From an uncultured Oxalobacter sp. (GTDB lineage Bacteria; Pseudomonadota; Gammaproteobacteria; Burkholderiales; Burkholderiaceae_D), in contig CALGGD010000262.1 of assembly GCA_937916185.1 (NCBI GenBank), forward strand, positions 1 through 9,413: 9,413 nt of DNA, written 5' to 3'. Positions within the stretch are counted from its first letter, which is position 1; each line of letters begins with the position of its first letter. This document shows, piece by piece, positions 471-9,413 of this stretch. Below the pieces are notes generated by a model, which saw nothing but the letters and a program-made list of their open reading frames with translations, did not search any database and was not told where the DNA came from. Both the position numbers and the translations under genes were made by a program.

Positions 471-1364
471 CTACCAGTCAAGCCCATTGCCTTTCGCCTT
501 TATGACGGGGGGCGGTACTGTCTTTCCCCTGGCAGGAGCCACTGTCCTGTGCGTTGGAAGCACCCCCGCTTTCCGACCGGCCATCACTGCCTTTTCAGTG
601 GAAGCCGGTGCCTGGTTCTCTTGGACACCAGAGGCAGCAGGGGCTTCAGCAGGTTTTGCCGCTTCTGCCGGTTTCTGTGCTGCGGGCGGTTGAGGTGACG
701 GCTCAGGACTTTTCTTTTTGCCCCCCATAGCAAAAAAGGCACCACCACCCACAATGACAGCGACGGCTATCCCTGCAATGGCATAAATGCCTGTCTTGGA
801 TTTCTGCTGGGGTTGGGGTGTCGATTGCTGTTGTTCTGGATGGGGAGAGGAAGATGCTGGAACATTGCCACCGGTTTCAGCGGCATGGGTTTCCGACTCT
901 GTTTCACGTTGGGTCAAAGCGGTCGGCTGTCCGGCTGAAACAGGCGCATCATCGAAACACCGGCTGATGTACCCTGCAAGCTCCCTGCTTATCCTGATGG
1001 GGCCAAGCGGTGCCCTAAGCAACCCGTTCTCCTGAAGCTTCGGCAACGACAGCTCTTCACGGTCAGCCTGCCTCAGCAGCCTCAGACGGGCATACTTCCG
1101 ACCTGCCCTGTCTTCCTGCCCCCCTTCAGGGTCAGGAACCAGCTTGAACTCCCTGTCTTCCGGCGACACTTCTGAAAAGGGCATCGACTCCTTTTCGACA
1201 ACGGTCTCGTACATCACCCGCTGATAGGGTGCCGAACAGTAGATATAGACGGTATCCCCTACTGCATACCTTGCCGTGTGATGCCAGTCTATGAAACCCA
1301 GCTTCCTGAATGCGCCTGCATGGTCATAGACTTTCGGATTGGCTGAAATCATCCAATTTTGCAT
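471..1364 (-). CDS. EVE-like (PUA-fold) protein with one transmembrane helix
   Basis: 297 residues. Residues 1-135 look like an EVE domain: WMISANPKVYDH, a Trp in GFIDWHH, VGDTVYIYCSAPYQRVMY and a closing segment PIRISRELAGYISRCF. EVE domains belong to the PUA-like fold and are generally thought to bind modified bases in DNA or RNA; they often occur near or fused to restriction-type nucleases. No nuclease is fused here. Residues 136-190 are a polar Ser/Gln/Pro linker, 193-213 a single hydrophobic helix (IYAIAGIAVAVIVGGGAFFAM) followed by GGKKK, and 217-297 a Pro/Ala/Lys-rich low-complexity tail. The likely topology is an N-terminal cytoplasmic domain, with the lysines just after the helix making the tail's side uncertain. 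The start is supported by GGAG ten bases upstream and by WMISANP, which is typical of the domain's first strand. The upstream small gene overlaps this start, suggesting translational coupling. Domain call likely; role of the membrane anchor unknown. Confidence 0.85.
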   Translation of the reverse strand: MQNWMISANPKVYDHAGAFRKLGFIDWHHTARYAVGDTVYIYCSAPYQRVMYETVVEKESMPFSEVSPEDREFKLVPDPEGGQEDRAGRKYARLRLLRQADREELSLPKLQENGLLRAPLGPIRISRELAGYISRCFDDAPVSAGQPTALTQRETESETHAAETGGNVPASSSPHPEQQQSTPQPQQKSKTGIYAIAGIAVAVIVGGGAFFAMGGKKKSPEPSPQPPAAQKPAEAAKPAEAPAASGVQENQAPASTEKAVMAGRKAGVLPTHRTVAPARGKTVPPPVIKAKGNGLDW

Positions 1365-1531
1365 ACATCCATTTCTCCCATCAAAACAGATTTACCGTCT
1401 TCCACTGAAACCACCTTGACACCATCTCTCGTCGTATCGGCATCCCCACGACTTCTTTTGGATTCACATAATATGAAAAATCAGGTTTTTCAGCATATTT
1501 TTCCAACATCCGCTTATGGGCGTAATCGGAC
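1349..1531 (-). pseudogene. Frameshifted small gene cut off by the invertible segment
   Basis: On the minus strand one frame reads SDYAHKRMLEKYAEKPD and on to NPKEVVG, then runs out of frame to a TGA at 1381-1383. The neighbouring frame continues naturally from VVGDADTTRDGVKVV to GEMDVCKIG and stops at TGA 1349-1351. The join lies at a run of four G; one additional G would make one frame of about 60 codons. The restored stop overlaps the ATG of the EVE-like gene by 16 bases, an operon-type overlap that suggests the two once formed a unit. No ATG precedes SDYAHKRML at this copy: the base triplet at the equivalent position is ACG (1531-1533), and an in-frame TAA lies at about 1560. The first possible ATG is 1509, giving a 42-residue product that ends at 1383. 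The first nine codons lie in the 28-bp recombination site. The family is not recognised. It could be a true small phase-variable gene rather than a dead one. Confidence 0.5.
1504..1531 (-). repeat. Left 28-bp inverted repeat, probable recombination site
   Basis: These 28 bases are the exact reverse complement of 2747-2774, with no mismatch. Read on the minus strand, the site has arms TCCGATTA and TAAGCGGA, complementary at 7 of 8 positions, around a 6-base core CGCCCA (plus-strand 1517-1522). Extending the arms to 13 bases each (1504-1516 and 1523-1535) keeps 10 of 13 pairs. This arm-core-arm plan matches the crossover sites of tyrosine recombinases of the Xer type. The core is asymmetric, so the site has polarity. 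Confidence 0.8.
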
Positions 1532-1651
1532 GTTTGATGTCCAGGAAGGCAGAGGAATTTTTACCGGATATAAGGAAAGTGACCTATGGGGTTTCAGAAC
1601 ACCACAGTCTGTCTGTTGGCATTAGACTTCCATCCTTTTCAGAGGTTTTTT

Positions 1652-2644
1652 ATGGAAGCATTGCATCAGATTTCCGCCAGACATCCTGATTTCCACGCAT
1701 CGCTCCAGCGGTTTCTCAAATCATTGGAGTCCAGTCAGAACACTATCCGGTCATACCAGAATGCCATCAGGTCCTTCATGGATTGGATGGCGGCATCAGA
1801 TATTGAAAACCCGAAACGGGAAAATGTCATCCAATGGAAAGACCATATGAAGGCTACACGGTCATTGGGGACTGCACAGACATACCTGACTGCTGTCAAA
1901 GCTTTCTTCAGGTTCCTGGAACAGGAAAACCTCTATAGGGACATTACAGTCAATATCCGGGGTGTACATGTCGGGAATAACCCCAAAAAAGATCCCTTGA
2001 CCGTTGAGCAGGTCCTGACGGTCCTGGCAAAAACACAGGAAAACACCAGTGGAAACCGTGACTATGCCATCATCCTGCTGATGGTGACATGTGGTCTCAG
2101 GATATCAGAAATCGCCCGTGCCAATATCGGGGATTTCCATTGGTCTGGGAACAGTCTGCTCCTGTCCATCCATGGCAAGGGGAAAGACGGTAAAACCGAA
2201 TTTGTCCCAGTCCCTGGAATCACAGCACAGGCAATCAACCATTACCTCAATACCCGCAAAAGGGCAGATGAAAACTCTCCGTTGTTTGTTTCACAGAGCA
2301 ACAACCATTATGGCAGGCGGATATCTCCACGAAGCATCAGCCGAATGGTCAAGCAGACCTTTATGGAATGCGGGCTGTGCAACAGGCGTCTGACTGCACA
2401 TTCACTGAGGCATACCGCCATCACACTGTCATTGATAGCAGGCAGCTCCCTGCAGGAAGCCCAGCAGTTTGCCCGTCACAGCCTGATTACAACCACACAA
2501 ATCTATGCCCATAATCTGGAACATGTCAGGAACCCCTGTGCTGACAGGGTTGCGGAAGCATTGTTTCCGCAACGCTCTTTTGCTGCACTGTTAAAAGGAA
2601 AGATGGCGTTCAATCAAGAAGGAAAGGAGAATATCCGACTATGA
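1652..2644 (+). CDS. Tyrosine recombinase, XerC/XerD-like
   Basis: 330 residues, a full-length phage-integrase-family recombinase acting on DNA by a tyrosine-linked intermediate. Residues 12-100 form the helical core-binding (SAM-like) domain: SLQRFLKSLESSQNTIRSYQNAIRSF, and TYLTAVKAFFRFLEQENL. Residues 115-300 form the catalytic domain with the whole active site: Arg150 in CGLRISEIA, the lysine region HGKGKDGK (174-181), His250-x-x-Arg253 in HSLRH, His276 in FARHS and nucleophile Tyr285 in TTQIYAH. The start at 1652 has AGAGG six bases upstream and gives a normal family N-terminus. A start at 1586 is also possible (AAGGA nine bases upstream) and would add 22 mostly hydrophobic residues, which is less usual. 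The gene is alone between the two 28-bp inverted repeats, which points to those repeats as its substrate. Which DNA it acts on is inference from position. Confidence 0.93.
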   Translation: MEALHQISARHPDFHASLQRFLKSLESSQNTIRSYQNAIRSFMDWMAASDIENPKRENVIQWKDHMKATRSLGTAQTYLTAVKAFFRFLEQENLYRDITVNIRGVHVGNNPKKDPLTVEQVLTVLAKTQENTSGNRDYAIILLMVTCGLRISEIARANIGDFHWSGNSLLLSIHGKGKDGKTEFVPVPGITAQAINHYLNTRKRADENSPLFVSQSNNHYGRRISPRSISRMVKQTFMECGLCNRRLTAHSLRHTAITLSLIAGSSLQEAQQFARHSLITTTQIYAHNLEHVRNPCADRVAEALFPQRSFAALLKGKMAFNQEGKENIRL

Positions 2645-2744
2645 AATCGACTTCCAATAGTATAGAATGGACTTGTTGTAAAGGCAGACAGCATAAGGAC
2701 GTTGATATAAATCTATCTTATTATGGGATTTTTCAAGTTTCTCA

Positions 2745-3048
2745 ATGTCCGATTACGCCCATAAGCGGATGTTGAATCCTCTTATGGAAGCCTCGGTCAG
2801 CCAGCCCTGCAACCTGGTTGGATTATAGCAGGGACTAACGGGAAAACGTACCTTTCCGATATGCCAGTGCGCCACTATGTGACGTACTGGCAAGGTGCTT
2901 CATCAACTGGCAAAGGGACCGGCACTTCAGAATGATGCTGACAACCGATTCAGGTGGAACTGGAATCACTGTAAACCATTTCAGGCGTATCAAGGAAACC
3001 TGTCAACTGATTCAGGAAAGCACAGGGTTGACCTGCCAACTATTTTAA
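2745..3048 (+). pseudogene. Decayed gene remnant to the right of the invertible segment
   Basis: Coding-like text is spread over all three plus frames. From ATG 2745 one frame reads MSDYAHKRMLNPLMEASVSQ and then hits TAG at 2826-2828. A second frame (2774-2930) reads GWIIAGTNGKTYLSDMPVRH and YVTYWQ. A third (2839-3048) reads CFINWQRDRHFRMMLTTDSG, then GTGITVNHFRRIKETCQLIQ and ends at TAA 3046-3048. Joined by two frameshifts these give one plausible protein of about 95 residues. Near the second shift the words ACTGGCAAGG and ACTGGCAAAGG are repeated (about 2885 and 2907), a likely slip or duplication that caused the break. I do not recognise the family. There is no good ribosome binding site before ATG 2745. 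It is followed by the upstream region of the first ATPase gene. Confidence 0.4.
2747..2774 (+). repeat. Right 28-bp inverted repeat, probable recombination site
   Basis: Exact reverse complement of 1504-1531. Core CGCCCA lies at 2756-2761, with 13-base arms at 2743-2755 and 2762-2774 pairing at 10 of 13 positions. The inner edge differs from the left copy by supplying an ATG at 2745-2747, so the repeat reads ATG TCC GAT TAC GCC CAT AAG CGG as M-S-D-Y-A-H-K-R. It lies 102 bases past the recombinase stop codon. Confidence 0.8.
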
Positions 3049-3133: not shown

Positions 3134-4315
3134 ATGATCAAGCGTGAACACTACATATCCCAAATCAGACCTTTCTACGAAAGTGGCCTGGTAAAAATCA
3201 TCACCGGAATCCGCCGCTGTGGAAAGTCTATAATTCTGCAGCAAGTGTGCAAAGAATTGGAATCTGAAGCCAAAAGGTGCCTTTTCCTGGACTTTGACAT
3301 GCGGCCTGTGCGGAAAAAGATACCGGATGCCGATGCCCTGATTGCATTTGTCGATGAACACCTTGGCAATGAGAAACTGTATCTTTTCCTGGATGAAGTC
3401 CAGAACATCGAAGGCTGGAATGAGGCATGCAGGACACTGCGGCTTTATAACTGCTCTGTCTTCGTCACCGGCAGCAACTCAAAGCTGCTGTCCCGGGAAT
3501 TCACCAAAGAACTGTCTGGACGGTATGTCTCTTTCCGGGTCAAACCATTTGTTTATCAGGAAGCAAAGGAATATGCAGATCAGTTGGGCAGACCTTTTGA
3601 AATCAGCGACTACCTGATATGGGGTGGATTCCCTGCCGCACTGGAACAACCCAACGAAGAGGCACTCAGGCGGTACCTGAACGACTTGAACAGTACCATT
3701 ATCTACAACGACCTCGAAAACAGGTACAACATCCGCAAAAAAGATGTCTTTGAACGCATCGTTGACTATATCCTGGTATCAAACGCCCGGATTTTCAGCG
3801 CAAAATCCATAGCAGATTATATGAAGGGGCAAAATATCACTATCACTGTCCCAACAGTCATAAAGTACCTGGAATACCTGAAAGAAGCTTATGTGATTGA
3901 GGAAGTCCCCCTCTACTCACCGAAAGCCAAGGCAAAGATGAGCTATTATCACAAACTTTATGACGAAGACGTATCCATGAACAGCATCAGGGCTGAAAGC
4001 AGACACTATGACCTGACCCACAACCTTGAGAATATTGTTTACAACGAGCTTGTTTACCGGGGATATGAGATTTCCGTCTATAACCACAAAGGCAGGGAAA
4101 TCGATTTCCGTGCATCCAAAGACGGCAAACTTTACCTCATCCAAGTAGCATACAGTGTCGCTGAAAGGAAAGCCTATGACAGGGAGTTTTCTGCTTTCGC
4201 CAGTATTGACAACGCCATGAAAAAAATCCTCATCACGAATGATGATATCGACTATTCAACAAGCACTGTCTATCACTACAGACTGAAAGACTTTCTGCTG
4301 ATGGATGGGCTGTAA
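3134..4315 (+). CDS. ATPase of the AAA_14/DUF4143 family (COG1373), first copy
   Basis: 393 residues. The N-terminal AAA-type domain has Walker A GIRRCGKS at 25-32, Walker B LYLFLDE at 82-88, and a sensor-1-like VTGSNS followed by the family-typical ELSGRYVSFRVKPF. The C-terminal DUF4143 part (about 200-393) holds a conserved helical region and then GREIDFRASKDGKLYLIQV near 320-338, which matches the PD-(D/E)xK-like tail of the family with Gln in place of the usual Lys. The biochemical role of the family is not well defined; members are thought to be nucleotide-dependent switches or DNA-associated ATPases. The start is backed by MIKREHYISQI, a normal family opening, although no Shine-Dalgarno sequence is present; a short or absent leader is likely. 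The gene converges on the WYL regulator, with a hairpin between them. It resembles the second copy more than the third, as shown by the shared TGIRRCGKS and GRY/IR motifs. Confidence 0.92.
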   Translation: MIKREHYISQIRPFYESGLVKIITGIRRCGKSIILQQVCKELESEAKRCLFLDFDMRPVRKKIPDADALIAFVDEHLGNEKLYLFLDEVQNIEGWNEACRTLRLYNCSVFVTGSNSKLLSREFTKELSGRYVSFRVKPFVYQEAKEYADQLGRPFEISDYLIWGGFPAALEQPNEEALRRYLNDLNSTIIYNDLENRYNIRKKDVFERIVDYILVSNARIFSAKSIADYMKGQNITITVPTVIKYLEYLKEAYVIEEVPLYSPKAKAKMSYYHKLYDEDVSMNSIRAESRHYDLTHNLENIVYNELVYRGYEISVYNHKGREIDFRASKDGKLYLIQVAYSVAERKAYDREFSAFASIDNAMKKILITNDDIDYSTSTVYHYRLKDFLLMDGL

Positions 4316-4318
4316 CCA

Positions 4319-4364
4319 GATTCCCGCTCTATCAACCATATCCTGCCAGCAGGAAACGGGAATC
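4319..4364. terminator. Hairpin between two convergent genes
   Basis: GATTCCCG (4319-4326) pairs perfectly with CGGGAATC (4357-4364), and inside this a second stem TCCTGC (4341-4346) pairs with GCAGGA (4349-4354). The structure fills the gap between the ends of the first ATPase (4315) and the WYL gene (4390), where a two-way transcription stop is expected. There is no T-run after either arm, so it is not a textbook intrinsic terminator. Confidence 0.4.
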
Positions 4365-4389
4365 CTCCAGGCGGGAATGGACAGGATAT

Positions 4390-5406
4390 TCACCTGGCGT
4401 AACTGGCCGCCATGTCTTTTGCTGTCTTCACAAAAACTTCCCGCAGCGATGCCGGTTCCAGGACTTCGACATCCGCTCCGAACGCCATCAGCCACCAACG
4501 CAGCTGGGAGGTGTCTGAAACGGTCGCCTCGACACGGACTTTACCCCCCTCTTCGGTCAGTTCCTGGTCTCTGGACAAAGGGGTCTCATAAAGGTGGGCG
4601 GCGGCTGTTTCTGAAAAAAGCGCAACCAGATGGATGGTTCCCCGGTCAAAGAAACCCAATGCACCGGAAGCCATGTAATCGGCAAGGCAGAAGCCCTTGG
4701 GCCTCCTGGAAGGCCGGTCCAGTTTTTCCGCCGAGCGGATGCGGTGCAACGCAAACAGACGGATATCGGTGTATCCATCGACCGTCACGATCAGGTATAT
4801 GACGCTGCCACGCTGGACAAGCCCCAATGGATGGACGGTATGGGTCTGTTTCCTGCGTTTGGAACGAGAGGTATAACTGATTTCAAGCAGTTTTTCCGAT
4901 AACAGGGCATCATGGACGGTTTCGAGGATGCCTTCGTCATATTCAGGGGCAATCAACGGCTGGCTGGCGGAAATCAGGGTCACTTTGTCCCGCCAGTCCG
5001 CCATGTTCCTGACGCTGTCGCCGCTCAGCAGCACGTTGTCGGCATACCGGAAATATGGGGACAGGACATTCATCAGCGATGCCGGCAGCAGGTTCCTCAG
5101 ATGGTCATGCGCCAGGCTGAGGGTCAGCGCCTGGATGGGCGACATGCCAGGTACGGCAAACATGCCGGCATCCCTCTGCCAGCTCCATCCATAGGGCCGG
5201 GAACGGTCGTCCGCCTGGAGCGGGAAGATGCCTGACAGAGTCTGAAGGTTCCTCTCAATCGTCCGTTTGCTGACAGCGAACCCTTCATCCTCCAGACGGT
5301 GCATCAGGTCGGTCGCCGTGATTTTCCTTGGATACTGCGGGATGTTTTTCAGGATTGCCCACTGCCTCAGCAGGGTTTCCAGTCCATTGCCTTTGTTGCT
5401 CATCAT
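4390..5406 (-). CDS. WYL-domain transcription regulator
   Basis: 338 residues. Residues 10-65 form a winged helix-turn-helix of the HTH_11/DeoR type (ITATDLMHRLEDEGFAVSKR, then TIERNLQTLSG), followed by GWSW and a linker region. Residues 165-232 form the WYL domain: LLEISYTSRSKRRKQTHTVH, PLGLVQRGSVIYLIVTVDGY and DIRLFALHRIRSAEKLD. The signature WYL reads Ile-Tyr-Leu here (203-205). Residues 255-335 match the C-terminal WCX region. Such proteins bind DNA as dimers and sense small ligands or nucleic acids; many regulate defence islands (BrxR and CapW are known examples). AGGAG lies just before the double ATG at 5406 and 5403. The promoter region at 5467-5522 carries two dyads, consistent with autorepression. 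It is transcribed in the same direction as the second ATPase upstream. Family call firm; target genes are inferred from position. Confidence 0.93.
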   Translation of the reverse strand: MMSNKGNGLETLLRQWAILKNIPQYPRKITATDLMHRLEDEGFAVSKRTIERNLQTLSGIFPLQADDRSRPYGWSWQRDAGMFAVPGMSPIQALTLSLAHDHLRNLLPASLMNVLSPYFRYADNVLLSGDSVRNMADWRDKVTLISASQPLIAPEYDEGILETVHDALLSEKLLEISYTSRSKRRKQTHTVHPLGLVQRGSVIYLIVTVDGYTDIRLFALHRIRSAEKLDRPSRRPKGFCLADYMASGALGFFDRGTIHLVALFSETAAAHLYETPLSRDQELTEEGGKVRVEATVSDTSQLRWWLMAFGADVEVLEPASLREVFVKTAKDMAASYAR

Positions 5407-5466
5407 GTTCTCCTACCTGTCATTGTGCCTCTGATTCCCTGCTTTTCCCTCATGGGTGCCACCCTG

Positions 5467-5522
5467 AGTCCCGTGCCCAGGGACTGACCTTATTATAGGC
5501 ACCTGAACGTCATGTTATGACG
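5467..5522 (-). promoter_or_regulatory. WYL gene promoter bracketed by two dyads
   Basis: On the minus strand a perfect TATAAT box lies at 5492-5497, placing the transcription start near 5485 and giving a leader of about 80 bases before ATG 5406. No clear TTGACA-like box is present at the right distance. A dyad AGTCCC (5467-5472) and GGGACT (5480-5485) with a 7-base spacer covers the start point. A second dyad CGTCAT (5508-5513) and ATGACG (5517-5522) with a 3-base spacer covers the -35 area. The two dyads differ in sequence, so they may bind different proteins. Confidence 0.5.
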
Positions 5523-5556
5523 CATCGGGAAAGGTATGCGGGCTGACCGCTCCCAT

Positions 5557-6795
5557 TCACTCTGCCAGCAACCAGTCGATCAGGTTGATGGAACGGATGC
5601 CTTCATATGACTGGATGAAATCCCTGTCCATCGACAGGACGGTTTTTTCATAATTGTCATTGATTGCCTGCAGCGGCCTCAGTTCCCGGTCACGGGTTTC
5701 CTTTGCCGCCATGCTTTCAGTAACCTGGATATAGACTTTCTTATCAGGTTTTTCAGCAATGAAATCGACTTCAGTATCACCGAACTTACCGATATAAATA
5801 CGGTAATCCCTTCTAAGCAGTTCAAGGAAAACGATGTTTTCCAAGATATGTCCCCTGTCTGCATCGCGGTATCCAAGCAGGATGTTCCGGAATCCCAAAT
5901 CGATGATATAGTTTTTACCCAAGGTCTTCAGCTGTTGCCGCCCTTTGATATCATATCTGCCCACAGAATAGAAAATATAAGCATTGCGGAGCATCTCGAC
6001 ATACCTTTCAACTGTCCTGCCTGCTGTTTTCCTTGCCTTCCCACCTTCAAGATTGCCCTCATCCGTCAGTACATTCCCGATGTTGTTTGGAGAAGTGATG
6101 CTGCCAATTGTTGAGCAGAGATAACGCATGATTTTCTGCAGTGTTGTCTGGTCAGCCCCTTTATTGCGTTGAAGGACATCGCGGAGTATGACGGTTGAAT
6201 AAATCCCTTCAAGGACTTGATGGCATCTGGACTCATTGAACTGGTATTCATGGAGGACAGGCATTCCCCCAAACTGAAGATAACGCTGGAACCGGCTTTC
6301 GATGGATCCGCTGGCATCGAATTGATAAAACGTCAGGAATTCCCTGAAAGAAAGCGGCAGCATACGGATTTCAACATACCTGCCTGAAAGCAAGGTGGAA
6401 AACTCCGTTGAGAAAAGGTATGCGTTTGAGCCAGTGATATAAATGTCAACATCAAAGTCAAGGCGGAACGATTCAATGGCTTTTTCCCAATGTTCGACAA
6501 CCTGAAGTTCATCAAAAATCAGATAGGTTTTGGCGTTATCAGGAATACGCTTGCTGACATCCTCATAGAAAGCCCCGTAATCTTTCAATTCACGGTAACG
6601 GAGGGACTCCAGATTCATATGAATGATATTCTGAGGAGGTACACCATCATCAAGCAGGTATTGATGGTAAAGTTCCAGCAATGAAGACTTCCCGCACCGT
6701 CTGATACCGGTCACGATTTTAACGGGACTGGTATTGCGATGCCCAATAAGCTGGTTGAGGTACTCTGGCCGGTTGATAAGATTGGTTGCCATCAT
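5557..6795 (-). CDS. ATPase of the AAA_14/DUF4143 family (COG1373), second copy
   Basis: 412 residues. Walker A is GIRRCGKS at 30-37, Walker B YLIFDE at 91-96 and the sensor-type segment ITGSNAYLFS at 120-129, followed by SGRYVEIRMLPLSFREF. The DUF4143 C-terminal half includes GKNYIIDLGFRNILLGYRD, a histidine-bearing GHILENIVFLELLRR, and the nuclease-like segment TEVDFIAEKPDKKVYIQV near 341-358, with Gln where a catalytic Lys is common. All ATPase motifs are intact. AGGGA lies eight bases before the double ATG at 6795 and 6792. The gene has its own promoter region with twin dyads (6857-6918) and ends 150 bases before the WYL start on the same strand. The 30 bases encoding EVDFIAEKPD (5743-5772) also occur in split form around the recombinase (see findings). 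The family is sure; the biological role is unknown. Confidence 0.92.
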   Translation of the reverse strand: MMATNLINRPEYLNQLIGHRNTSPVKIVTGIRRCGKSSLLELYHQYLLDDGVPPQNIIHMNLESLRYRELKDYGAFYEDVSKRIPDNAKTYLIFDELQVVEHWEKAIESFRLDFDVDIYITGSNAYLFSTEFSTLLSGRYVEIRMLPLSFREFLTFYQFDASGSIESRFQRYLQFGGMPVLHEYQFNESRCHQVLEGIYSTVILRDVLQRNKGADQTTLQKIMRYLCSTIGSITSPNNIGNVLTDEGNLEGGKARKTAGRTVERYVEMLRNAYIFYSVGRYDIKGRQQLKTLGKNYIIDLGFRNILLGYRDADRGHILENIVFLELLRRDYRIYIGKFGDTEVDFIAEKPDKKVYIQVTESMAAKETRDRELRPLQAINDNYEKTVLSMDRDFIQSYEGIRSINLIDWLLAE

Positions 6796-6856
6796 CTGTT
6801 TTTCCCTATCAGGAAGGTTTCCCCCATCTTAATGGAAAGCAACTTCAAGTCAATAC

Positions 6857-6918
6857 TTTTTGATATGAAAGTCAAAAATTATAAAAAATAATGATGTTTT
6901 TGACTTATATATCAAAAA
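6857..6918 (-). promoter_or_regulatory. Twin 22-bp dyads around a TATAAT box upstream of the second ATPase
   Basis: Two copies of TTTTTGA-N8-TCAAAAA lie at 6857-6878 and 6897-6918. Their centres are 40 bases apart, close to four helical turns, so bound dimers would sit on the same face of the DNA. A TATAAT box on the minus strand (6878-6883) lies between them, putting transcription start near 6871, inside the first dyad. This is the arrangement expected for a repressor operator. The two 8-base spacers differ (TATGAAAG and CTTATATA), so the arms are the conserved part. Confidence 0.6.
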
Positions 6919-6960
6919 ATAATATCCTTAAACAGGATTGCTTGATGTAGGAAAAATGGC

Positions 6961-6998
6961 AAAAAGACTCTGGTGACAGCTTCAAAAACCTTCACCAG
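6961..6998 (-). terminator. Probable intrinsic terminator after the 77-residue gene
   Basis: Read on the minus strand, CTGGTGA (6992-6998) pairs with TCACCAG (6970-6976) across a 15-base loop, then AGTC and a run of five T (6961-6965). It lies about 55 bases past the stop of the 77-residue gene. The stem is only seven pairs with a long loop, so strength is uncertain. Confidence 0.5.
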
Positions 6999-7051
6999 CT
7001 TCATGAGAGCATGGAATCAACTGTGCCTTGCCCTGTTTTATGCCATGCCTG

Positions 7052-7285
7052 TCAGTCACTGGTTTCAGTGACATCTTCTTCAGTCAGTTCCAGGTATTCG
7101 GTTTCCCCTGACAGGGAACAGCACATGGTGATTTCCAGGCTGGGCGGTCCTCCATGGATTTTCATCCGGCTTTCTGCCATATCGATATAGGATTGGATGG
7201 TCTGGTCTGTGACGTTGCCTGCCAGGTTTTCCCTCACAAAGTCTGCGATGGCTTTTTTCCCTGCTTCGTTGATGGTCCTGCCCAT
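7052..7285 (-). CDS. Small acidic protein of unknown function
   Basis: 77 residues, opening MGRTINEAGKKAIADFVREN, then a helical stretch TDQTIQSYIDMAESRMKIHG, a GGPPSLEI strand segment and a very acidic tail ending ELTEEDVTETSD. AAGGAG stands six bases before the ATG, one of the best ribosome binding sites in the window, so it is probably expressed. It follows the third ATPase on the same strand after a 92-base gap with no obvious promoter, and a terminator-like hairpin comes next, so the two may form a transcription unit. Two cysteines (MCCSL) lie in the middle. I recognise no family. An antitoxin or partner role for the ATPase would be speculation. The N-terminal helical region and strong ribosome site argue for a real gene. 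Confidence 0.7.
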   Translation of the reverse strand: MGRTINEAGKKAIADFVRENLAGNVTDQTIQSYIDMAESRMKIHGGPPSLEITMCCSLSGETEYLELTEEDVTETSD

Positions 7286-7377
7286 GACTGCTCCTTGTTT
7301 TCAATGTACTGACAGAAGAGATTATGGCATATCTGCCCTTGGAATTGATGCCTGTGGATTTTCCAAGATGCCCTTTA

Positions 7378-8655
7378 TCAGTTTTTCAAAGCTGTTATCG
7401 GCACGACAAAGACACCGTCAGGACGTTGATAAGCTGCATTTGACAGTCCACAGACAACGCAGAGTGTTTGGGGAGGTTTGGCTTTTGCATCCTGTTCAAA
7501 GGCTTTCTTGATTTTCAGCAGATTGGCGGCACCGGCATCAATTTCATTGGCGCCGAGCTTGATTTCGAACGCACTCCACTCGCCATTGGGCAATTCAATG
7601 ACAGCATCAATTTCTCTATTACTGTAATCTTGGTAGTGATACAGTCTGCCATCAAACGTTTCTGCATAGATACGCAGATCTCTTTCGACCAGTGCTTCAA
7701 AAAGGAACCCCAATGTATTGAGGTCTCCAAGCAACCTGTCAGGTGTTGCGCCTAGGAGTGCACAGGCAAGGGATGGGTCGCAGAAATGGCGCTTTTCCTG
7801 CTGTTTGACCCGCACGGAAGAACGCAGTGAGGTCGAGAATGGCAGCTGGTTGTCCAGCAGGAACAACCGGTTGAAGATGTCCAGGTATTCTGCGATGACA
7901 TTGATATCAATATCATCGTCATCTTTTTCTATGATGTCCCGTTTCAATGTCCTGTTGGAAGCCGTTGTACTTTCATTCCTCGCTAAAGACCGGAGAAGTT
8001 TATGTATCTTGCGGGTATCCCGTTTTATGCCATCCAACCGATAAATGTCATCAGCCAGGATTGCCTGGATGTATTGACCAGGAAGCAGCATTGCAAGGTC
8101 AAGCGGTACACCGATGTTTTCAGGCCAGCCGCCCCGGATAATCCGGTCGATGATTTCCATCAGGTCAACCTCTCCTGTCATCAACGACGGGGCTTCCCCG
8201 GTACAGATGTCCTTCAGGGATACCTGTCCACTGGAATAGCCTGCCTCATAGAGTGACATGGTATGCATCCTGAGCCTGGCAATCCGCCCAGCTCCGCTAT
8301 GGAGGATACCTTTGTGTTTTGGTGTGGATGACCCTGTCAGGATGAACCCACCTTTGGTACCAGACCTGTCAACATGAGCCCTGACCGCATCCCATAAGGC
8401 AGGGACTTCCTGCCATTCGTCAATCAGTCGTGGAGATGCTCCAGAAAGGACAAGGGAAGGATTCATTTCTGCAAGCCGACGGTTCTGGAAATTCCCATCA
8501 GGATTCCCAATCCTGACCTCACTTGCAGCATGAAAAGCTGAAGTCCATGTTTTTCCACACCATTTCGGTCCTTCAATACAGATGGCACCAAATGCAGACA
8601 GATGTTTTACCACCTGTATGTCAATGAGACGTTCTATATATCTGTCATTTTTCAT
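7378..8655 (-). CDS. ATPase of the AAA_14/DUF4143 family (COG1373), third and most divergent copy
   Basis: 425 residues. Walker A is GPKWCGKT at 29-36, the form typical of one large branch of this family, and Walker B is RLIDEWQ at 76-82, followed by VPALWDAVRAHVDR and the sensor-type ILTGSSTP at 105-112. GRIARLRMHTMSLYEAGYSS is another family hallmark. The C-terminal DUF4143 half contains FCDPSLACALLG and then NREIDAVIELPNGEWSAFEIKLG. Its Glu-Ile-Lys keeps the full PD-(D/E)xK pattern (Asp, Glu, Lys), unlike the first two copies, which have Gln-Val. The DNA before ATG 8655 lacks a good ribosome site. Its promoter has an extended -10 box and a 23-bp tandem repeat. The 77-residue gene follows downstream. 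Family certain; cellular role not established. Confidence 0.92.
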   Translation of the reverse strand: MKNDRYIERLIDIQVVKHLSAFGAICIEGPKWCGKTWTSAFHAASEVRIGNPDGNFQNRRLAEMNPSLVLSGASPRLIDEWQEVPALWDAVRAHVDRSGTKGGFILTGSSTPKHKGILHSGAGRIARLRMHTMSLYEAGYSSGQVSLKDICTGEAPSLMTGEVDLMEIIDRIIRGGWPENIGVPLDLAMLLPGQYIQAILADDIYRLDGIKRDTRKIHKLLRSLARNESTTASNRTLKRDIIEKDDDDIDINVIAEYLDIFNRLFLLDNQLPFSTSLRSSVRVKQQEKRHFCDPSLACALLGATPDRLLGDLNTLGFLFEALVERDLRIYAETFDGRLYHYQDYSNREIDAVIELPNGEWSAFEIKLGANEIDAGAANLLKIKKAFEQDAKAKPPQTLCVVCGLSNAAYQRPDGVFVVPITALKN

Positions 8656-8779: not shown

Positions 8780-8965
8780 TCAACGGTAAAACGCAGACCG
8801 TCTTTTGACCTTGATGACAGGAATGTCTATCATGGCAGGTTTGACCTGATACCTGGCCATCCCGTTTGGTTTGACCAGCGCAGGGCTGATGTTCCTTTTC
8901 CACTTCCTGGGCAGGACACGGATGATGGAAAACCGTCTATCCGCCCGTGGTTGCAGGACAGGCAA
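8780..8965 (-). CDS. Doubtful small basic ORF after the helicase stop
   Basis: A 61-codon open frame with a TTG start directly follows the TAG of the helicase and is in the same frame, separated from it by one alanine codon. It is rich in Arg and Lys (SIIRVLPRKWKRNIS, KVKRRSAFYR). There is no ribosome binding site of note before TTG; an internal ATG (GMARYQVKPAMIDIPVIKV) gives a shorter version. It may be noncoding, a small unrelated gene, or a remnant. The helicase already ends where its relatives do, so read-through is not needed. Confidence 0.2.
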   Translation of the reverse strand: MPVLQPRADRRFSIIRVLPRKWKRNISPALVKPNGMARYQVKPAMIDIPVIKVKRRSAFYR

Positions 8966-8968
8966 CGC

Positions 8969-9413
8969 CTAAAGCACAGGCACTTTCTCCTTCAGGAACG
9001 CACAGGCAACCGTTTCATCCCGTGTCCGTGCGAATGGCGGCATGCTCCGCCAGATCCTGCCACCATAGGGCTTGTCAACCAGCCGGGTGTCACAGACCAT
9101 CAGGACACCGATGTCCTTGTCATCACGGATCAGCCTGCCTGCCCCCTGCTTCAGGCTGATGATGGTCTCCGGCACCTGATAGTCCATGAAACCGTTCCCG
9201 CCATTCCGTTCAAGGACTTTCAGCCGTGCAGCCAGCACGGGATCATCGGGCGGCGCAAACGGCAGTTTGTCCACGATGACCAGAGAAAGCGCCCTGCCTT
9301 TGACATCCACGCCTTCCCAGAAGCTCTGGCTGCCGATCAGGATACCGTTCCCTGCACGGCGGAACTGTTCGAGGAGTTCGTGCCGGCTGGCGGTGCCTTG
9401 GACAAAGAGGGGG
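8969..9413 (-). CDS. yoaA: ATP-dependent DNA helicase of the YoaA/DinG family, N-terminal part beyond the window
   Basis: 148 codons at the 3' end of a superfamily 2 helicase gene, open to the right edge of the window. It reads PLFVQGTASRHELLEQFRRA, then ILIGSQSFWEGVDVKGRALS, LVIVDKLPFAPPDDPVLAAR and the motif VI segment ISLKQGAGRLIRDDKDIGVL, ending with CDTRLVDKPYGGRIW and FLKEKVPVL. FWEGVDVKG and KLPFAPPDDP are characteristic of YoaA rather than DinG, whose equivalent is AEGLDLPG. YoaA is an XPD-like 5'-3' helicase, usually with an iron-sulphur cluster (not in this part), that works with a polymerase III subunit in tolerance of replication blocks. GTG at 9310 is not a true start; the protein continues upstream. 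Its end coincides with the normal family C-terminus. Confidence 0.93.
   Translation of the reverse strand, partial: PLFVQGTASRHELLEQFRRAGNGILIGSQSFWEGVDVKGRALSLVIVDKLPFAPPDDPVLAARLKVLERNGGNGFMDYQVPETIISLKQGAGRLIRDDKDIGVLMVCDTRLVDKPYGGRIWRSMPPFARTRDETVACAFLKEKVPVL

Follow-up and report, generated by a model that had tools for sequence, protein, structure and literature searches.

A predicted invertible segment enclosing its own tyrosine recombinase gene in an uncultured Oxalobacter

Oxalobacter are oxalate-degrading bacteria of the gut, and the window described here (the whole stretch of 9,413 nucleotides analysed, from an uncultured member of the genus) carries an intact gene for a Xer-like tyrosine recombinase that lies between the two copies of an inverted repeat (Table 1). 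The start of the gene is better placed at the ATG at 1652 than at 1586, because it is at 1652 that the relatives align. Its product combines the Phage_integrase domain with the R-K-H-R-H-Y residues by which a tyrosine recombinase of the Xer-like type is recognised (R150, K176, H250, R253, H276 and Y285), the columns of which are invariant among the aligned relatives, and it is not a serine recombinase of the Hin type. The nearest solved structures by sequence are archaeal XerC-like/XerA proteins and the XerD of E. coli. When compared with the NCBIfam models the protein is not an equivalog of the enzymes of chromosome dimer resolution, scoring 128 bits against a cut-off of 335 for XerC and 127 against 330 for XerD, and it also misses the cut-off of XerA_Arch (139 bits against 220).

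Table 1. Features of the window around the recombinase gene, with positions counted from its first nucleotide.
Feature	Position	Strand	Remarks
Candidate left target gene	471..1364	-	297 aa; start 139 bp from left site
Predicted invertible segment	1504..2774	.	1,271 bp with both sites; based on inverted register and identical asymmetric 6-bp centres
Left recombination site, predicted	1504..1531	+	28 bp; exact inverted copy of 2747-2774
Left site, 26-bp register	1507..1532		arm CATCCGCTTA, centre TGGGCG (1517-1522), arm TAATCGGACG
Xer-like tyrosine recombinase, intact	1652..2644	+	330 aa; Pfam Phage_integrase 4.3e-26, SAM_1 1.4e-11
Small ORF	2641..2775	+	44 aa; start overlaps recombinase stop (ATGA), ends at right-site edge
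Right recombination site, predicted	2747..2774	-	28 bp; 26-bp register 2746-2771, centre CGCCCA 2756-2761
Candidate right target gene, AAA_14/DUF4143 ATPase	3134..4315	+	start 359 bp from right site

The inverted repeat is exact over 28 bp and is 97% identical over 31 nt. A preliminary description of this DNA had placed a perfect repeat of this length at these positions, with one complete recombinase enclosed by the arms, and all of this is confirmed; when the window was shuffled 200 times by a first-order Markov model, the longest exact inverted repeat had a mean length of 13.7 and never exceeded 20. The imperfect inverted arms that had been described within the repeats are also real, with 10/13 pairs in the left copy and 9/13 in the right around a 4-bp centre, or 10/12 and 9/12 respectively around a centre of 6 bp. 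The two sites agree at 19/20 arm positions, whereas the pairs of relatives introduced below agree at 10-19/20, and they lie in inverted orientation with an identical central overlap, which is the arrangement of an inversion system. The spacing of the sites is 1,239 bp, against 176-215 bp in 18 pairs from relatives.

Inspection of the flanks by eye found no direct repeat outside the arms, that is, no target-site duplication as left by a transposon. A switch of the Fim type would have a promoter pointing outwards from ~200-300 bp of DNA towards a surface-structure gene, and the segment is longer than this and carries a gene. Promoter-like sites within it occur at the level of chance, with 4 found and 3.2 expected. 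In layout only it is of the Hin type, as the recombinase gene is inside the segment that is predicted to invert. The exact 25-bp site of the window has no match in viral contigs, the window as searched by blastn has none in a plasmid collection, and arms of the window type are absent from all 13 genomes of the genus Oxalobacter.

The genes at 471..1364 and 3134..4315 are candidate targets of a switch by virtue of their position. The product of the former has an N-terminal part common to HNH-domain proteins, and a Pfam search found no surface-structure or adhesin-type family among the neighbours of the segment. When the segment is inverted in silico no gene is broken or fused, with the sole change being to the end of the small ORF behind the recombinase gene, which would then end in 13 further residues; this ORF may itself be due to chance. 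The flanks of the segment are without syntenic match in the genomes of the genus, thus a syntenic empty site was rejected as a test; nor did the relatives examined contain the segment and its neighbours in synteny.

Close relatives of the recombinase are confined to six of 195 genomes of the family (G001-G006, best E values 1.8e-100 to 1.5e-59), with the next genome reaching 1.0e-21. Within the genus set six of the 13 genomes have close relatives, the remaining seven reaching just 8.8e-9 to 1.9e-16. There is one copy each in G001-G003 (51-53% identity) and one each in G005 and G006, whilst G004 has three window-type recombinases and a remnant. The closest relatives at the protein level (P0002-P0006) are 60-66% identical, and in a tree of 39 proteins, which has flagged long branches and leaves some of the deeper forks open, the recombinase of the window groups with them (99/96). 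The XerC/D-like proteins of G001-G003 form a group apart from the window-type recombinases in this tree. A neighbouring clade contains Acinetobacter proteins, one of which is named as plasmid-borne, and the recombinase of L006. A search of a phage protein collection gave 415 records, all of which are below 60% identity, with the best at 25-29%, and no member of the clade of the window's recombinase was confirmed in viral contigs. One relative comes from a record titled Alistipes senegalensis (L003), which is nevertheless part of the genus set of Oxalobacter as well as of the family set and has a recombinase that groups with that of O. formigenes, so the title of the record looks wrong.

Enclosure of the recombinase gene by its sites was looked for in 18 relatives, none of which has it enclosed by an inverted pair resembling the 28 bp within 1.2 kb, the best being 23/28 in L002. 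There is one notable exception at a span of 4 kb, in that L006 (Burkholderiales, 44% identity) has an AT-rich inverted repeat at 4428-8190, exact over 18 bp and 92% over 24 nt, that spans 3.7 kb and encloses the recombinase together with neighbours. These include a ParA-like gene next to the recombinase, whose start resembles that of a ParA partition ATPase. The repeat of L006 is unlike the sites of the window, and it may be a product of chance in TA-rich DNA or may represent another self-enclosed layout.

What the relatives do have are short pairs of sites. All six of the recombinase-bearing genomes of the genus contain inverted site pairs, 176-215 bp apart, which are found beside the recombinase and/or near genes for surface proteins, compared with one of the other seven genomes. 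That one is G182 (1.4 Mb), where the pair (L187:382-585) is 178 bp apart with a matching centre, and where no close relative of the recombinase was found in the assembly. In five rumen-type loci (L007, L009, L011, L013, L014) an inverted repeat with 155-167 nt between its arms separates the recombinase gene from a divergently oriented gene whose product has an ESPR signal, and YadA-type domains are found in L007, L009 and L013, either in the divergent gene or in the ORF next in line. The cassette adjoins the recombinase in these five loci and also in L001, where the arms of a perfect 25-nt pair, 173 nt apart, lie downstream of the recombinase gene; no such pair adjoins the recombinase in L002 or L003. 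The position of the recombinase is different in O. paraformigenes (G002), where the closest of the listed sites is ~17.7 kb away and the genome carries seven scattered site pairs, and in G003, where it is more than 230 kb from the sites on the same contig.

The 13 genomes of the genus were searched with the pattern TGTCCGTTAATNNNNATTAACGGACA, allowing up to 3 mismatches, with matches in L001 and L007 built in because the pattern was derived from the loci described above. The pattern was found seven times in G002, five times in G003, four times in G001, twice in G004 and once in G182, with none in the rest of the 13 genomes, and the reversed pattern was not found in any of the 13. Inverted pairs, 14 in number, account for 17 of the 19 pattern sites. 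The two without a partner are both in G001, one on C20 at 12191, where the contig ends 31 nt afterwards, and one on C31 at 110843, which has no partner within 1.6 kb. The latter (L201:5044-5069) is a lone perfect site, and on the same stretch is a gene that reads like one for a formyl-CoA transferase.

A shared consensus of the form TGTCCGTTAA-n6-TTAACGGACA can be drawn from the sites of L203-L213, L001, L007, L009, L011, L013 and L014. In a Pfam survey of the genes near the pairs, which took in no downstream gene for L212, autotransporter beta-domain proteins were found near five (L203, L205, L207, L209, L211), a porin near L210 and a PfkB/cytidylyltransferase protein near L204. The genes tested near L001 and L213 gave no Pfam family, L208 has one nearby gene without a family and another with SUFU, Imm33 and TPR domains, and the ESPR/AIDA protein of L206 has its listed start 1.5 kb away. 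It is predicted from these positions that invertible cassettes are spread across the genus Oxalobacter, close to genes for an LPS-sugar enzyme, a porin, autotransporters and YadA-type adhesins, and that they would control these genes. A search of the open-licence literature found no account of inversion-based phase variation, or of such switches, in Oxalobacter. The cassettes of the relatives are ~200 bp in length and without any gene. Matches resembling sigma-70 promoters within them reach 8-10/12 at best, in both directions and as scored without a null, so that to call them promoter cassettes is to go by their position and size, not by a promoter signal.

That these pairs are crossover sites is suggested by their centres. 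For a tyrosine recombinase to exchange strands the centres must be identical, with more freedom in the arms, and the 6-bp centres are identical in inverted register in 15/15 of the pairs tabulated, whose arms agree at 10-19/20. The table of 15 omits L013, L014 and L187 (the pair of G182), and with these added the centres are identical in 18/18. Picking as partner whichever candidate matched best as reverse complement is biased towards matching centres, so a control was run in which random 26-mers were handled alike; 21/419 had a 6/6 centre, and 3/419 were also 150-230 bp apart. A half-site matrix built from 30 sites of the relatives, with the window excluded, ranks position 2746 first (9.43) and 1507 second (8.86) of 9,388 positions in the window, with the next at 4.99. 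Some position scoring at least 9.43 is held by 5% of 200 shuffled windows, thus the matrix by itself gives modest support, and its strength is that the two top positions are the repeat that had been found independently. By this measure both sites of the window match the arm consensus of the relatives and belong to the Oxalobacter site family. The preliminary description had preferred a DNA switch to a generic integrase gene, and this is supported by the repeats matching the family of sites that bounds cassettes in those Oxalobacter genomes that have related recombinases.

Signs of inversion itself can be seen in the relatives. L202 (G001) breaks off 31 nt into a cassette, the outer left flank of which matches L212 (G003). 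Of these 31 nt, 25 agree with the reverse complement of the right inner end of L212 and 8 with its left inner end, where the shuffled maximum was 21 in 20,000. The left site of L202, CATCCG...CGGACA, is the hybrid that is predicted from the two sites of L212. By sequence comparison the two genomes thus appear to have the cassette in opposite orientations, and the half-sites are hybrid as expected after inversion. In the assembly of O. paraformigenes HOxBLS (G002) a single 163-bp cassette is present twice in L207, in opposite orientations on either side of a run of N, and both copies continue into an identical 26 nt made up of the right half-site and flank. This is explained most simply by one assembly holding both phases of one switch, the alternative being a true inverted duplication. 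The stretch with both copies, L207:4254-4784, adjoins an ESPR/pertactin-type autotransporter gene. Finding both orientations for these two cassettes favours the reading of the repeats as parts of a switch, whilst counting against inversion are L013 and L014 (90% identity), which share their orientation, and L210 and L212, which do likewise.

The stretch at 1504-2774 is therefore probably a switch that is inverted by its own recombinase, which is stated as a prediction as inversion of the window itself was not observed. Protomers of the recombinase would bind the four arms and pair both sites, the strands would be exchanged within TGGGCG and the 1.27-kb segment would be turned round. Inversion would turn the recombinase gene along with the sequence that flanks it, so that its transcription would point either right (3134) or left (1364). 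Rightward transcription would face the AAA_14/DUF4143 gene and leftward transcription the gene at 471..1364; alternatively, inversion would sever the recombinase gene from a promoter outside the segment. If the window does flip, it provides a compact invertible unit of one gene, with a tyrosine recombinase riding inside its own switch, and feedback of the recombinase on its own expression becomes testable.

A recombinase inside the segment it is predicted to invert is unusual, as the recombinases of the relatives adjoin their cassettes or lie far from them. It is conceivable, and is put forward tentatively, that a tyrosine invertase has here captured itself, with an enzyme of the Xer type that in Oxalobacter serves switches of surface genes across the genome becoming enclosed by its own crossover sites. 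Each flip would then turn the gene of the recombinase itself and could change or silence its expression, giving a self-limiting system that is Hin-like and yet independently evolved.

Several other readings need to be weighed against a working switch. The sites could be genuine and the segment now fixed, having once been a short cassette whose second site ended up past the recombinase gene, through displacement or copying. This would account for a spacing that is far outside that of the 18 pairs of the relatives, for the lack of a promoter signal above chance and for there being no obvious surface gene adjoining, but the arms are intact and differ at just one of 20 positions, and the catalytic residues have been kept, which makes a fixed segment rather unlikely. 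A role for the recombinase mainly in trans, acting on distant cassettes with the flanking repeat being incidental or autoregulatory, has its model in O. paraformigenes and in G003, where enzyme and sites are far apart. It is nevertheless improbable as the main explanation, given that cassette and recombinase adjoin in the five rumen-type loci and L001, and action in trans is in any case compatible with self-inversion.

A gene between inverted repeats is also the layout of a small mobile element, in which the 28 bp would be terminal inverted repeats and the recombinase a transposase or integrase, and the lack of a syntenic copy of the segment and its neighbours in the relatives examined would suit such an element. 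It is a very improbable reading, because there is no direct repeat outside the arms, the same family of sites bounds recombinase-free cassettes in the relatives, and the pattern of the sites and the layout of the recombinase fit conservative inversion. Nor are sites of the window type dispersed, either in the 13 genomes of the genus or as the exact 25 bp in viral contigs. The preliminary description had named relatives in which the repeats serve as transposon ends as a case that would tell against a switch; no such case was found, with window-type arms in 0/13 genomes of the genus.

Against systems that are already known, the predicted switch of the window shows partial likenesses. Closest are promoter switches of the Fim type with a tyrosine recombinase nearby, in particular ipuS and IpuA of uropathogenic E. 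coli, a 260-bp switch with 7-bp repeats beside an autotransporter operon, with the distal repeat within the coding sequence of the recombinase and only the 3' end of ipuA inside the switch (PMC6083910). The combination of a tyrosine recombinase with short inverted repeats is alike, and in L007, L009, L011, L013 and L014 the cassette is likewise arrayed with a recombinase and an adhesin gene, whereas the window has a whole recombinase gene inside 1.27 kb and repeats of 28 bp. The Hin invertase of Salmonella is described as encoded within its invertible segment (PMC5903667), and the recombinase gene of the window is likewise inside the segment predicted to invert, but Hin is a serine recombinase and the window has a tyrosine recombinase and a different site anatomy.

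The pneumococcal cod locus has the gene for the tyrosine recombinase PsrA between inverted repeats and rearranges the locus, with repeats that are inside hsdS genes and shuffle reading frames, and with PsrA catalysing only the IR1 inversion (PMC4948785). The repeats of the window are outside any known protein gene, and PsrA is a partial precedent. The master invertase Mpi of Bacteroides fragilis is described as one recombinase, of the serine type, with many dispersed pairs of sites (PMC5903667). The likeness here concerns the relatives and not the window, with such an arrangement likely in G002 and G003, where the Oxalobacter enzyme is of the tyrosine type. In a study of gut invertons Oxalobacter is absent from the main text, the accessible part of which contains no report of a recombinase within an inverton and does describe one group of invertons with recombinase genes in a regulatable orientation (PMC11892184).

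The remainder of the window, to the right of the segment, has features of its own. Three AAA_14/DUF4143 ATPases lie within 5.5 kb (3134-8655), of which that at 5557-6795 has 84% protein identity to a gene of G005. Marking the window as Oxalobacter-like, the gene at 7052-7285 and the end of a helicase-type gene at 8969-9412 have 96% and 97% protein identity respectively to G004 (Oxalobacter sp. MBin.057), and the DNA at 8854-9413 is 90% identical to that of the same genome.
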